From NCBI RefSeq assembly GCF_040409955.1, contig NZ_CP123384.1, positions 930,001 to 994,000 on the forward strand: 64,000 bases of DNA, read 5' to 3'. Under the pieces are notes generated by a model, which did no database searches, was not told the origin of the DNA, and saw nothing but the letters and a program-made list of their open reading frames with translations. The DNA comes from Salipiger sp. H15. GTDB lineage: Bacteria; Pseudomonadota; Alphaproteobacteria; Rhodobacterales; Rhodobacteraceae. Positions 2,744-19,501 of this stretch are shown here, piece after piece. Made by a program: the position numbers and the translations under genes. Positions within the stretch are counted from its first letter, which is position 1, and every line of letters starts with the position of its first letter.

Positions 2744-3895
2744 TCAGGCGAAGTAGTCGCGCAGCATCCGGGTGTAGATCGCCTTCAGCTGGGTGATCTG
2801 CGCCACCTCGACGTTCTCGTCGACCTGGTGCAGCGTCTTGCCGACGAGGCCGAACTCGACCACCGGGCAGTGGTGCCGCACGAAGCGCGCGTCCGAGGTG
2901 CCGCCCGTGGTCGAGAGCTCGGGAATGCGCCCGGTCTCGGCCTCGACCGATTTCGCCACCAGCTCCGAGAGCGGCCCCGGAGGGGTGAGGAAGGCCTCGC
3001 CCGAGATCTTGATTTTCACCTCGGTGCGGGTGCCGAACTCGGCGTCGACCTTGGCGGTCTCGGCGCGCAACCAGTCCGACAGCGAGGCGCCGGTGTGGAT
3101 GTCGTTGAAGCGGATGTTGAGCGTGGCGCGGGTCTGCGCGGGCACGACGTTGGTCGCCGGGTTGCCGGTGTCGATGGTCACCACCGCCAGCGTCGAGGGG
3201 TCGAAATGGTCGGTGCCCTCGTCGAGCACGTGCGAGGACAGCCGGTCCATCAGCCGCGCCATGGCGGGCATCGGGTTCAGCGCGCGGTGCAGGTAGGCCG
3301 AGTGGCCCTGCTTGCCGGTCATGGTGAAATGCGCGTTCATCGAGCCGCGGCGGCCGATCTTCATCATGTCGCCCATTTCCTCGGGGCAGGTCGGCTCGCC
3401 GACGATGCAGATCGACATGCGCTCGCCCTCGGCGTCCATGTAATCGAGCAGCGCCGTGGTGCCGTCCACCGCGTCGCCCTCCTCGTCGCCGGTGATGGTC
3501 AGCACGATGGCCCCTTCGGGCGGGGTCGCGCGCACGAAGTCGATGGCGGCGGCAGCAAAGGCGGCGACGCCGGACTTCATGTCGGTCGCGCCGCGCCCGT
3601 ACATGATCCCGTCCTTCACCTCGGCGCCGAAGGGATCGACGGTCCAGGCGGCAAGATCGCCCACCGGCACCACGTCGGTATGGCCGTTGAAGCCGAAGCT
3701 CTTCGCGTGGCCCTTCTCGCCCCAGCGGGCGAAGAGGTTGGCGACGCCGCCCCGGTCGACCCGCGTGCAGGCAAAGCCCGCCGCTTCCAGCAGGCCCTGC
3801 AGCAACACCAGCGCGCCGCCCTCCTCGGGGGTGACCGACGGGCAGCGGATGAGGTCGGCGGTCAACTGGACGGGATCGGTGGGCTGGATGGTCAT
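2744..3895 (-). CDS. dapE: Succinyl-diaminopimelate desuccinylase
   Basis: M20 family di-zinc amidohydrolase of 383 residues, normal for DapE. It hydrolyses N-succinyl-L,L-diaminopimelate to L,L-DAP and succinate in the cytoplasm, feeding lysine and peptidoglycan synthesis. Metal and catalytic residues are visible in [10 protein letters not shown] (H72, D74), [10 protein letters not shown] (D105, bridging) and the GDEEG motif (E138/E139). The dimerisation lid domain lies in the middle, around residues 180-290, and contains the [11 protein letters not shown] stretch. It converges on the SLC13 gene with a 15-base gap. The DapC-like aminotransferase in the same window supports the succinylase branch of lysine synthesis. 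Confidence 0.95.
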
Positions 3896-4048
3896 GAGCG
3901 CAACTCCGGTGTGGTTTGCCCTTGGCTACAGCGCGGCGCGCGCGCGTGCAAACGCGATGAGGACGGCGCGCCGCCGCCACGCGCCCGCGGCGCCTCCCCC
4001 CGCGGATATGTTGACCTGCCAGAACGCCCGGGCGCGCGTGTCCCGGGG

Positions 4049-4082
4049 CTTCTTCTCTTTTCAAATACGCATATCCCTCCGG
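4049..4082 (-). repeat. GTATTTG intergenic repeat, copy 1
   Basis: On the minus strand this reads CCGGAGGGATATGCGTATTTG followed by AAAAGAGAAGAAG. The stretch from GCGTATTTG to the end is nearly identical to the copy at 55109-55143 and related to the one at 55011-55043. It lies in the divergent gap between dapE and rnr, in an otherwise featureless 268-base spacer. Similar sequences are, to my knowledge, common between genes in Rhodobacteraceae; their function is unknown. Confidence 0.6.
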
Positions 4083-14540: not shown

Positions 14541-15821
14541 TCAGCCGAAGATCAGTTTCGGGATGAAGAGCGAGATCTGCGGCACGTAGGTGATCAGCAG
14601 CAGCACGAGGATGTTGACCACCACGAAGGGCCAGACCCCGCCGATGATCTGCGCCACCGGCTTTCCCAGCGTCGAGGAGGCGACGAAGATGTCGAGCCCG
14701 AAGGGCGGCGTGATCATCCCCAGCGAGATGTTCAGCGTGACGATCATGCCGAAATGAACGGGGTCGATGCCCAGCGACTGCGCCACCGGGAAGAGCGGCG
14801 GCACCAGCACCAGCAGCGCCGAGTTCGGGTCGATGAACATGCCCGCGATGAAGAAGCAGAGGTTCGCCACCATCAGGAAGGTGATCCAGCCCGCGTCCAC
14901 AGAGTCCAGCATGCCGATGATCCCGGCGGGCACCTGCGCCAGCGTCACGAAGAACGAGATCAGCCCGCCCATCGCCAGCAGCACGAAGATGATCGCGGTG
15001 TTGATGGCGCTGCGCTCGGTGATCGCGAAGAGGTCGGACCACGTCAGGCTGCGCAGGATGAAGGCCTCGACCACGATGGCGTAGACCACGCTGACCGCCG
15101 CCGCCTCGGTCGGGGTGATGACCCCCGAGTAGATGCCTCCGAGGATGATGACGGGCATCCCGAGCGCCCATTTCGCCTGCCAGATCGCGCAAAGCCGCTC
15201 GGCCCATGGCACGCGCGGCTCGCGAGTCACGCCGGCCTTGCCCGCCTCGAGCCAGACGAAGATCGCGAAGGCGAGGCCGAGCACGATGCCGACGGCGAGC
15301 CCGCCCGCGAAGAGCCGCGAGATCGAGGTGCCGGTCATCCAGCCGTAGACGATGAAGGTGATCGAGGGCGGGATCAGCAGCGAGGTCTCGGCGCTGGCGA
15401 CCAGCAGGCCGAGGCTGAACTTGTCGGAATAGCCCGCGCGGCGCATCTCGGGATAGACCATCCGGCCCATCGCCGCGACCGTCGCCGGGGCCGAGCCCGA
15501 GACCGCGCCGAAGGCCATGGAGCCGCCCACCACCACGTGGCCGATGCCGCCGCGGGTGTGCCCCACGAGCGCCTTCACCACGTTCACCAGCTGCGCCGCG
15601 ATCTGCCCCGCACCCATCAGGTTGGCGGCGAAGATGAAGAACGGAATGGCCAGCAGCGTCGTGTGGTCGATGCCGCCGACGATCTTCTGCACGATCGCCG
15701 GATCGGGCAGCTTGGCGTAGAAGAGTTCCTTGTAGGCCAGCGCGGGCACGCCCAGCACCAGCAGCATCTCGAAGCCCGCAAGCAGCAGGAGCGCGGCGAG
15801 AAGGATGATCAGGATCAGCAT
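14541..15821 (-). CDS. dctM: TRAP transporter large permease, DctM
   Basis: A 426-residue inner-membrane protein with about 12 hydrophobic segments, the large subunit of a tripartite ATP-independent periplasmic transporter. Typical DctM stretches are GGSMAFGAVSGSAPATVAAM, SLLIPPSITFIVYGWMTGTS, TPTEAAAVSVVYA and SLGMITPPFGLDIFVASS. It drives Na+-coupled uptake of a solute delivered by DctP. The start ATG at 15821 shares its A with the TGA stop of dctQ (TGATG), so translation is coupled. It ends 79 bases before gpmI. Confidence 0.93.
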   Translation of the reverse strand: MLILIILLAALLLLAGFEMLLVLGVPALAYKELFYAKLPDPAIVQKIVGGIDHTTLLAIPFFIFAANLMGAGQIAAQLVNVVKALVGHTRGGIGHVVVGGSMAFGAVSGSAPATVAAMGRMVYPEMRRAGYSDKFSLGLLVASAETSLLIPPSITFIVYGWMTGTSISRLFAGGLAVGIVLGLAFAIFVWLEAGKAGVTREPRVPWAERLCAIWQAKWALGMPVIILGGIYSGVITPTEAAAVSVVYAIVVEAFILRSLTWSDLFAITERSAINTAIIFVLLAMGGLISFFVTLAQVPAGIIGMLDSVDAGWITFLMVANLCFFIAGMFIDPNSALLVLVPPLFPVAQSLGIDPVHFGMIVTLNISLGMITPPFGLDIFVASSTLGKPVAQIIGGVWPFVVVNILVLLLITYVPQISLFIPKLIFG

Positions 15822-16318
15822 CACTCGGCCTCCGCCTGCGCCGCGAAGCGGTCGATGAGGCCGAAGAGGCTGAGCCCGTAGCGCAGCCCCAGCAGCAGGA
15901 AGCCGATGACCGGCGCGAGGTAGATCAGCCCCATGGGGATGCCCAGCGTCGGCGAGGTCTGGCCGGATTTCAGCACGAACTGCACCATCTGCACGCCGAG
16001 CCACGCCACGTAGAGCGAGAAGAGCAGCCCCACCGTGTCGATCACCCGCAGCAGCCAGCGCCGCGCGGGTTCGGGGAGTTTCTCGCGCAGGTTGGTGATG
16101 CCGACGTGCTTGCCGCGCTCCAGCGCGAGGCCGAGCGCAAGGAAGACGAGGAAGAGGTTCATCAGCCGCACCGCCTCTTCGATCCAGGCGAAGCGGCTGG
16201 CCATCGTGCCGCCGAACTCGCGCATCACCACGGAGCCGAAGAACAGCGCCACCATGGTCAGGAAGAGCACGACGAGGATCGTGCGCTCGACCTTTCGCAG
16301 GAGGGTGAGAAGGGGCAT
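15821..16318 (-). CDS. dctQ: TRAP transporter small permease, DctQ
   Basis: A 165-residue membrane protein with four predicted transmembrane helices, the small subunit that partners DctM. Typical DctQ sequence includes RFAWIEEAVRLMNLFLVFLA and GKHVGITNLREKLP. The start at 16318 is chosen for GGAG eight bases upstream; an in-frame ATG 48 bases further upstream lacks one. A perfect hairpin (16369-16392) lies between dctP and this gene and probably reduces transcription into dctQM compared with dctP. Confidence 0.9.
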   Translation of the reverse strand: MPLLTLLRKVERTILVVLFLTMVALFFGSVVMREFGGTMASRFAWIEEAVRLMNLFLVFLALGLALERGKHVGITNLREKLPEPARRWLLRVIDTVGLLFSLYVAWLGVQMVQFVLKSGQTSPTLGIPMGLIYLAPVIGFLLLGLRYGLSLFGLIDRFAAQAEAE

Positions 16319-16368
16319 GGGCAATCTCCGGTTCAGCTGGCGGCGGTGGGGCGGCTTATCTTGCAAAG

Positions 16369-16392
16369 AGGCGCCCGGGGGTCCGGGCGCCT
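16369..16392 (-). terminator. Attenuating hairpin between dctP and dctQ
   Basis: Perfect 10-bp inverted repeat, AGGCGCCCGG (16369-16378) with CCGGGCGCCT (16383-16392), and a 4-base loop. On the minus strand it is followed by CTTTGC, a weak U-tract. It lies inside the dctPQM operon, 46 bases after dctP, so it may act as partial terminator or 3' stabiliser for dctP mRNA. Confidence 0.65.
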
Positions 16393-16437
16393 TTCAAGGT
16401 CTTGGAAAGGTTGCGCGCCAAGGGTGGCGCGGCGGGC

Positions 16438-17448
16438 TCACTCAAGCCCGGCGACCGCCTCTTCATAGGTGGCGAGCAGCGCCTTGCCGGTGTCACCGGC
16501 CATGGCGATGTAGGCCTCCGAGGCCGGGCCCCAGGTCACGTCGCGCAGCGCGGCGCGCTCTTCGGGCGAGGCGACGCGCACGTTGGTGCCCGAGTCCTTG
16601 ATCACCTGCAGCGCCTCTTCGACGGCGGCGGCCTTGTGCGCGGTCAGCTCGGGGATGACCTCGGCGAAGGCGCCCTTGATCACGTCCTGGTACTCGGCCG
16701 GCAGGCTCTCCCAGAACATCGGGTTGAAGAGGACCACGTCCTCCATCGCGCCGTGATCAGAGATCACCACGTTTTCCTGCACCTCGTAGAACTTCATGTT
16801 CTTGATGGTGTCGAGCGGGTTCTCCTCGCCGTCCACGACGCCGGTCTGCAGCGAGGTGTAGAGCTCGCCGAAGGGCAGCGCGATGGCCGAGGCGCCGAGC
16901 GCGTTGAACTGCTCGATGAGGATCGAGCTGTCCATCACGCGGAACTTCTGGTCGGCGAAGGCGGCGAGATCGTCGAGCGGCTTGTTCGACGAGAACTGCT
17001 TCTTGCCATTCGGCCAGAGGGTCAGCGCGACCATGCCCTTGTCGGCGAAGGTCGCCAGCAGCGCCTGGCCGAAGGGACCGTCGCGCAGCGCCTGCGCCTT
17101 CGCGGCGTCCTCGGGCAGCAGGTAGGGAATGTCGAGGATCGAGACCGCCGGGTTGAAGCCGCCGAGGAAGGCGGCGGGGGCGACGGTGCCCTCGAGCGTG
17201 CCGAGCTGCACGCCCTCGTTCATCTGGCGCTGGTTGCCCAGCTGGCCCTGCGGGAAGATCTGCAGTTCGACCGCGCCGCCGGTGCGTTCCTTGACCAGCT
17301 CGGCGACCTTCTCGAGGTGCACGTGGCGGCTCTGCGCGGTGCTTTCGAGGTGGCCGATCTTGGCCACGAACTCCTGCGCCGAGGCGGCTCCGGATGCGAG
17401 GGAAAGCGCAAGCGCAAGCGCGGCGCCGGCAAAGCGGGTCATGACCAT
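16438..17448 (-). CDS. dctP: TRAP transporter solute-binding protein, DctP
   Basis: A 336-residue periplasmic binding protein. Signal peptide is about residues 1-25 (ALALSLASGAASA-QEF). The DctP-family core includes GHLESTAQSRHVHLEKV, the region FRVMDSSILIEQFNALGA with the conserved carboxylate-binding Arg, and the ELYTSLQTGVVDGEENPL motif typical of C4-dicarboxylate-type TRAP receptors. Ligand is probably a carboxylate, but the exact one cannot be read from sequence. Of two ATGs, the one at 17448 has GGAG at 8 bases. It is the first gene of dctPQM; a terminator for the upstream DUF6455 operon lies about 140 bases before it. Confidence 0.92.
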   Translation of the reverse strand: MVMTRFAGAALALALSLASGAASAQEFVAKIGHLESTAQSRHVHLEKVAELVKERTGGAVELQIFPQGQLGNQRQMNEGVQLGTLEGTVAPAAFLGGFNPAVSILDIPYLLPEDAAKAQALRDGPFGQALLATFADKGMVALTLWPNGKKQFSSNKPLDDLAAFADQKFRVMDSSILIEQFNALGASAIALPFGELYTSLQTGVVDGEENPLDTIKNMKFYEVQENVVISDHGAMEDVVLFNPMFWESLPAEYQDVIKGAFAEVIPELTAHKAAAVEEALQVIKDSGTNVRVASPEERAALRDVTWGPASEAYIAMAGDTGKALLATYEEAVAGLE

Positions 17449-18260: not shown

Positions 18261-18518
18261 TCAGCCTCCCGCGAGCTGGCGGAAGAGATCGGCGTTGCGG
18301 CAATAGGCGGGCGCCGCCTCGGCGACGCTCTCCTGCGAGTCGAGCCATGTTTCGCAGTCGCAGGGCTTGTGGCACCCGGTGCAGGCGAGGACGGCATCCT
18401 CGAGCCCGCCGAAGCTCAGCTCCCCGCGCAGCATCTTCTCCTCGAGATCGACCCCAAGCGCGCCCGCCATGCGATCGACAAGGGTGGCGTGAAGTTTGAA
18501 ATCCCGGGTTTCCGACAT
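18261..18518 (-). CDS. DUF6455 family small protein, first copy
   Basis: An 85-residue protein opening a three-gene operon. The motif ACTGCHKPCDCETWL gives C46, C49, C55, W58, L59 in the same spacing as the other two copies, plus an extra C53. The N-terminal half (HATLVDRMAGALGVDLEEKM) aligns with the others. A clear GGGAG ribosome binding site precedes ATG 18518. Upstream are a -10-like TAGGCT and a perfect FNR box. No enzyme domain is visible. With its cysteines and anaerobic-type promoter, an electron-transfer, metal-delivery or redox-sensing role is possible but speculative. Confidence 0.82.
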   Translation of the reverse strand: MSETRDFKLHATLVDRMAGALGVDLEEKMLRGELSFGGLEDAVLACTGCHKPCDCETWLDSQESVAEAAPAYCRNADLFRQLAGG

Positions 18519-18558
18519 GGCTCATCTCCCTCATGCACGGCCGAAACGGCCTTACCTG

Positions 18559-18607
18559 AGGTCAGAGCCTAGCCGAGTCGGAGCCTGCCGCCCTTGATGC
18601 ACATCAA
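18559..18607 (-). promoter_or_regulatory. FNR/FnrL-type promoter of the DUF6455 operon
   Basis: TTGATGCACATCAA (18594-18607) is a perfect match to the FNR consensus TTGAT-N4-ATCAA. On the minus strand the hexamer TAGGCT (18571-18566) could serve as -10. It would place transcription start at 18559 and the centre of the FNR box at exactly -41.5, the class II activator position. The leader then holds a small GGCCG-TTT-CGGCC hairpin before the GGGAG site. The box sits just past the M48 stop codon. Activation under low oxygen is inferred. Confidence 0.75.
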
Positions 18608-18609
18608 CG

Positions 18610-19323
18610 TCACACCCCGCCGCCGGCCAGATAGGCCTCGGTGGTGCGGCGCACGGTGTCGATTCTCTCGGAATTCGGCGGATGGGTGCCGAGGAAGCGG
18701 TTTCCGGGATCGGGCAGGCGCTCGAAGAACCGCGCGCCGCGAATCGGATCGAAGCCGCCGCGCAGGGTGATCACCGTGCCGAGCTCGTCCGCCTCGAGTT
18801 CGTAGCCCTTGGTGAAGGTACGCGCACCGACAGAGGCGCCGAACTCCTCGGCGCTGCGCACCGAGGCCTCGTCGGCCCCGGTCATCGCGGCGATGCCCGA
18901 GAAGATGATCGCGCCGATGGCGGCATCCTCCTGCACCCGGTCGAGATGTCCGAGGATGTGGTGCGACGCCTCGTGCCCCATGACGAAGGCCAGCTCGTCG
19001 GCGTTCTGCGCCTCGCGGATCAGCGCGAGGTTGAAGGCCAGCACCGGCCGGCCCTGGCTGTCGCGGGTCTGGAAGGCGTTCGGCGTCTCGTCGGGGCGGT
19101 CGTCCACGACGATCAGGAAATCGCAGTTCGCCCCGTCGCGGGTGATGTTCCGGCACTGGCTTTCGGCCACCGGCTCGACGCGGTGCACGACCTCGGTGAA
19201 CCGCTGCGCCGCCTGCGAGTCGGTGCCCGACAGGGCGTTGCTGCCACCCGTGGGCATCGAGGAGATCGGCGCGACGGCACAGGCCGAGACGAGGAAGGGC
19301 AGTAGGGGCAGAAGTCGGCGCAT
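18610..19323 (-). CDS. M48 family metalloprotease, lipoprotein
   Basis: A 237-residue zinc protease anchored by lipid. The lipobox LVSAC places the modified Cys at residue 15. The zinc motif HEASH is at residues 117-121, inside VMGHEASHHILGH, and the third ligand is probably E177 in YELEADELG. The C-terminal THPPNSERI is also typical of bacterial M48 (BepA/LoiP-like) enzymes that act in periplasmic quality control. I chose ATG 19323 because it gives a compact signal peptide with GGAG 11 bases upstream; ATG at 19350 has no ribosome binding site. The stop codon abuts the FNR box of the next operon. Confidence 0.87.
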   Translation of the reverse strand: MRRLLPLLPFLVSACAVAPISSMPTGGSNALSGTDSQAAQRFTEVVHRVEPVAESQCRNITRDGANCDFLIVVDDRPDETPNAFQTRDSQGRPVLAFNLALIREAQNADELAFVMGHEASHHILGHLDRVQEDAAIGAIIFSGIAAMTGADEASVRSAEEFGASVGARTFTKGYELEADELGTVITLRGGFDPIRGARFFERLPDPGNRFLGTHPPNSERIDTVRRTTEAYLAGGGV

Positions 19324-19501
19324 ACGTCGGGTCGCTCCGGTTCGGGTCATGGCGCAAGGATAGGCGGCGGCGCCCGGCTGCGCCAGTGCCGCGCTGGGTC
19401 GATGGCGGCATTGTGCTTTCCGCGTCGCCCCCCGGCCCGGCGCGGGGGGCGGTACATTTTGTGGATTGTGCGGCGCCGCGCGGCAGGTCTAGGCTGATCG
19501 C

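Follow-up and report, generated by a model that had tools for sequence, protein, structure and literature searches.

What condition turns on a family of small proteins that has no described function? Three tandem genes in the 64-kb window (the whole stretch of DNA analysed here) encode members of one such family, DUF6455, and an FNR-type box stands immediately before them. We consider it highly likely, judging from sequence and its conservation, that this site works as a class II FNR-type promoter, at which FnrL activates the three-gene operon at low oxygen. Under such conditions FnrL, an iron-sulfur regulator of the CRP/FNR type, would bind TTGATGTGCATCAA centred at -41.5 and contact RNA polymerase, and transcription from about 18559 through the three DUF6455 genes would be turned on. 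The features of the locus are collected in Table 1.

Table 1. Features of the DUF6455 locus, in window positions.
Feature	Position	Strand	Basis and remarks
FNR/FnrL box TTGATGTGCATCAA, palindromic half-sites, centre 18600.5	18594..18607	-	Sequence; kept 5' of DUF6455 lead genes
-10 hexamer TAGGCT	18566..18571	-	Read from sequence; A-11 and T-7 kept in register among relatives
Predicted transcription start (+1) for a box at -41.5	18559	-	Geometry
Ribosome-binding-site-like AGGGAG before DUF6455 gene 1	18526..18531	-	Read from sequence
DUF6455 gene 1, 85 aa, C46-x2-C49-x5-C55 ... C73	18261..18518	-	Pfam PF20056, E 7e-31; AlphaFold2 model
DUF6455 gene 2, 111 aa	17921..18256	-	Pfam PF20056, E 8.8e-19
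DUF6455 gene 3, 84 aa	17663..17917	-	Pfam PF20056, E 2.4e-18
M48-family peptidase gene, directly upstream	18610..19350	-	Pfam PF01435; syntenic neighbour, not necessarily in the operon

Box, -10 element and gene order at the locus

The sequence-only reading had described the box as a perfect TTGAT-N4-ATCAA, and TTGATGCACATCAA, the window letters at 18594-18607, matches that pattern exactly. This is the sole site in the window with zero or one mismatch. Shuffled sequence gave a mean of 0.42 such matches per 64 kb and at least one match in 36 of 100 shuffles, so a near-match alone in 64 kb is unremarkable; what is noteworthy about the box is its perfect match together with its placement and conservation. 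The 6.1-Mb genome holds 11 perfect palindromic sites, this one included, and the reversed pattern, used as a whole-genome control, yields no perfect site.

The same reading had claimed that the spacing to a TAGGCT hexamer puts the box centre at -41.5, and the geometry bears this out: with the hexamer at 18571-18566 on the minus strand, the predicted +1 falls at 18559. The box, the -10 hexamer, a 41-nt leader and AGGGAG are all found within the 91-bp intergenic gap, ahead of the ATG at 18518. Site type, a predicted centre at -41.5 with a -10 element, a cognate regulator gene in the genome and conservation at orthologues are together those of a class II promoter.

All three proteins score far above the PF20056 gathering score of 23.7 bits (106.6, 67.8 and 66.4 bits), and in a profile search they were the genome's only DUF6455 matches. 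Gaps of just 4 and 3 nt separate their genes, which we therefore read as one operon; the corresponding gaps in relatives are likewise short, mostly -4 to 40 nt. TRAP transporter genes DctM, DctQ and DctP (window 14541-17445) come after the DUF6455 genes here; at 34 of 55 other loci that place is taken by RimO, on the opposite strand. A gene for a CDGSH-type iron-sulfur protein lies just downstream of the operon, on the opposite strand, at 11 of 55 loci; an example is at 3754-4071 (minus) of L059, a copy on which PF09360 was confirmed. The gene neighbours of the DUF6455 loci were examined for a functional clue and none was found.

Conservation of the box and its register among relatives

The search of relatives matched DUF6455 in 81 of 195 genomes, counting the own genome, and sampling over the class matched it in 26 of 387. 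That the box should also precede orthologous operons had been set out beforehand as a check on the sequence-only reading, and the prediction held. A box with at most two mismatches lies in the 150 bp before the lead gene in 114 of 128 non-redundant DUF6455 clusters. The best site is perfect in 24 clusters, one mismatch off in 71, two off in 19 and at least three off in 14; the count omits one cluster with less than 120 bp upstream and 22 of 150 with identical last 60 bp. At the genome level, such a box precedes one or more clusters in 75 of 81, and all 20 same-genus genomes have it at one mismatch or fewer. Two overlapping samples agree with the survey. The 30 best-scoring loci (own included) all carry the box at no more than two mismatches, its centre 57-82 bp before the start, as do all 42 named genome loci in Salipiger, Alloyangia, Tropicibacter, Roseovarius, Shimia, Tateyamaria and others; the two samples share species (e.g., L038, L044) and are not independent, and the named set was found with one peptide pattern, 42 of its 224 stretches being relatives. 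As read from these alignments, a box before DUF6455 is a conserved feature of the protein family in Rhodobacteraceae.

Several results bear on the idea that the palindrome arose by chance or is a relic, and that DUF6455 is expressed constitutively or by read-through from M48. Read-through may occur at the window locus, where the M48 stop codon is 2 bp from the box, and an M48 homologue is present at 49 of 55 DUF6455 loci, at 48 of them as the same-strand upstream neighbour. However, the distance from the M48 stop codon to the box ranges from 6 to 1886 bp, which implies that the box follows DUF6455 and not M48. The upstream regions of neighbouring genes contain a box at two mismatches or fewer in 1 of 103 cases in total (M48 1/49; nitroreductase 0/29; RimO 0/25, these being the 25 of 34 RimO genes with sufficient upstream sequence), non-lead DUF6455 genes in 4 of 107, and the reversed pattern reaches that level in 1 of the same 128 lead-gene regions. 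The box and the -10 register are also kept where the surrounding bases are not. A chance or relic box, with the genes expressed by read-through or constitutively, is very improbable in our estimation.

Most of the clusters and genomes that lack the box (14/128 and 6/81) carry divergent DUF6455 proteins; where the lead protein is of the main type, 81 of 82 clusters have the box. The six DUF6455 genomes without a box at two or fewer mismatches are G026, G037, G083, G087, G177 and G184, the last two of which lie outside the taxonomic family. Divergent proteins whose upstream regions hold no FNR-type box (best 3-5 mismatches) are those at L102, L110, L148, L150, L152, L153 and L154. The existence of these divergent members implies that some of the protein family may be under other control.

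Beyond the taxonomic family, 200 bp upstream of 16 loci (L177, L179, L180, L182-L193 and L195) were searched; the box appears at one mismatch or fewer in 5 and at two or fewer in 8, compared with 5% and 9% of random 200-bp windows from those loci, boxes included. L181 was missed by the HMM, and L194 and L196 fall below the Pfam cut-off; L106 and L109, covered by the 128-cluster survey, carry no box. Start codons are uncertain in this set, so we take its signal only as a hint that an FNR-type box precedes DUF6455 outside the taxonomic family as well.

Alignment on the box used 113 of the 128 clusters (box at two or fewer mismatches, 45-115 bp from the start), of which 100 promoters were kept. 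It gave the consensus TTGAY-C-T-G-N-R-TCAAGG, in agreement with the published FnrN/FixK motif TTGANCNNGATCAANG (PMC4999443). The conservation of the box in this alignment is partly circular because the box was picked by its own score; the -10 columns played no part in that choice. A hexamer stands 22 bp after the box, with A at -11 in 72% and T at -7 in 78% of the promoters. The A-11/T-7 pair occurs in the exact -41.5 register in 66 of 100, one base to either side in 12 (-1) and 13 (+1), and in 0 to 6 at each of 18 other shifts. When each promoter is allowed one best register, 64 are exact, 25 are one base off, 5 lie elsewhere and 6 have none. Conservation across species thus extends from the box to its distance from the -10.

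This register also bears on the direction of control. FnrL is reported to repress some of its targets (PMC5398030), and the box could in principle be mainly a repressor or dual site at which FnrL shuts the operon off. However, a box at -41.5 relative to a conserved -10 has the position of activated promoters; among E. coli FNR-activated promoters with a known start, 19 of 23 sites are reported at -41.5 within 4 nt (PMC3688515). We give repression a very small chance. With an activating-position box kept before DUF6455 in most relatives examined, low oxygen is very probably the condition under which the family is made.

The candidate activator and its signal

A neighbour scan covered 8 of the 10 other perfect boxes in the genome (all except L009 and L012), and six of the ten were found to adjoin genes of the FnrL-target type: those for cytochrome c peroxidase, ccoN with Usp, COX2 with TldD, cytochrome bd subunit I, 5-aminolevulinate synthase (hemA) and a c-type cytochrome. 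Two more perfect boxes (L013 and L014, on G000:C2) lie near genes for a GntR/UTRA regulator and a solute-binding protein, which are not known to be usual FnrL targets.

FnrL itself is encoded in the genome (L155). The protein has an N-terminal C-x2-C-x7-C-x2-C, a central CC and ETVSR in the recognition helix, and scores 466.5 bits against the NCBIfam FnrL equivalog NF045989 (cut-off 300); the stretch encoding its helix-turn-helix region and the ccoN/usp box are some 3.3 kb apart. The FnrL of D. shibae is reported to carry an oxygen-labile Fe-S cluster (PMC5398030). Within the taxonomic family, 70 of 80 genomes, a few of them less than 90% complete, have an FnrL match at E 1e-40 or better, some of these matches being only 46-60% identical and possibly not orthologues. 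The match is present in all 46 genomes with DUF6455 and in 24 of 34 without (Fisher p 8e-5, uncorrected for relatedness). Since 34 of the 80 relatives have no DUF6455, the protein family is not needed for the FnrL response as such. No link between pufM and DUF6455 was found among the compared family genomes. The locus resembles the Rhodobacterales FnrL (FnrN) regulon in its TTGAY-N4-RTCAA followed by GG, its -41.5 register, its FnrL gene and the companion boxes at ccoN/usp, coxB, hemA and cytochrome c peroxidase genes.

The box might be used and yet have another CRP/FNR protein as its main activator, either a Dnr/NnrR-like regulator of the NO type or L159, with NO, nitrogen oxides or something else as the signal. 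FNR, FixK and DNR sites are reported to be very similar (PMC2908626), and the genome has nine HTH_Crp_2 matches above the Pfam cut-off among 19 at E 0.001. L159 is among the matches; encoded on another contig (G000:C5:42709-42924), it is a second FNR-like protein with C-x2-C-x7-C and ETLCR, Cys replacing Ser in the recognition helix. NnrS is weakly associated with DUF6455 (28/46 vs 11/34, p 0.014, uncorrected for relatedness or for the number of tests). Set against this, 18 of the 46 DUF6455 genomes have no NnrS whereas none is without an FnrL match, and the six perfect boxes described above lie next to oxidase, heme, peroxidase or cytochrome genes. We regard a different main activator as unlikely, if less so than the chance and repressor readings, and infer that FnrL rather than another CRP/FNR protein activates the operon, that oxygen is the signal and that transcription starts at 18559.

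DUF6455 proteins and their standing in the literature

The description of the three products as Cys-rich is a fair one, with 4 to 5 Cys per 84-111 residues. Across 94 sequences C46, C55 and C73 are invariant and C49 is at least 90% conserved. The C-x2-C-x5-C core, a description drawn from alignments and not a Pfam rule, occurs in 280 of 295 HMM hits, a figure in which the same gene in overlapping loci is counted repeatedly. The AlphaFold2 model of the gene 1 product has five helices (mean pLDDT 87.5, pTM 0.75); a search for a structural relative found none, which says little for a small helical protein. A Pfam scan of the three window proteins to E 10 returned DUF6455 only, with no similarity to the Wbl profile, HMMER filters dropping most matches above about E 0.1. 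The conserved core with its fourth Cys suggests a putative metal site, perhaps Fe-S. We put at about even the chance that the DUF6455 products form small helical folds and use their four conserved Cys to coordinate a metal centre, Fe-S or Zn, that serves low-oxygen metabolism.

Similar Cys arrangements are found in other proteins. The Wbl proteins of actinobacteria are, like DUF6455, small and helical with four conserved Cys, and their C-x2-C-x5-C spacing comes with the distant Cys placed first. They differ from DUF6455 in this Cys order and in phylum, and the window proteins match DUF6455 alone in Pfam. Wbl is described as a four-helix bundle, three helices of which are held by a [4Fe-4S] cluster (PMC5741622). 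DUF6455 could be an alphaproteobacterial counterpart of WhiB-like proteins, that is, oxygen- or NO-labile small Fe-S proteins under FnrL that form a second redox-sensing layer or bind sigma/RNAP or enzymes as partners, different paralogue sets responding to different signals; we consider this a doubtful proposal. RseC/RnfF shares C-x2-C-x5-C; in RseC an oxygen-sensitive Fe-S cluster is reported to form at this motif, and the protein has two transmembrane helices (PMC11729352), unlike the small five-helix model of DUF6455. The Cys of E. coli FNR reported as C20, C23 and C29 (PMC5398030) have the same spacing as the DUF6455 core. Shared spacing of this kind points towards a metal site but does not prove one.

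DUF6455 is unnamed in the examined parts of six FnrL regulon papers (PMC2908626, PMC4263372, PMC4634722, PMC4999443, PMC4344238 and PMC5398030). Papers on this regulon list many 'hypothetical' targets, among which the link between DUF6455 and FnrL may already sit unnamed. Table 1 of Dufour 2010 gives core-FNR ortholog set 2905 as 'hypothetical protein' with no R. sphaeroides locus (PMC2908626); this set could be the DUF6455 family.

The mechanism is already known in kind, and the new part is DUF6455 as a target family. A family without a described function gains a physiological condition, with an FNR-type box before it in 75 of 81 genomes, mostly in class II register, and becomes testable for a low-oxygen phenotype. 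The FnrL regulon in turn gains a lineage-conserved target, one unnamed in the examined parts of the regulon papers.

In a search of full-text literature, as far as the texts were covered, PF20056 appeared nowhere and DUF6455 was mentioned only in an Azospirillum RNA-seq paper, a table of which has a DUF6455 gene rising with ethylene (PMC11819568). Large plasmids of Thioclava (five records) and Pseudosulfitobacter (one record) carry genes for DUF6455 relatives too, at 34-36% identity, the records being CP155823.1, NZ_CP149933.1, NZ_CP135445.1, NZ_CP149517.1, NZ_CP149928.1 and CP069018.1.
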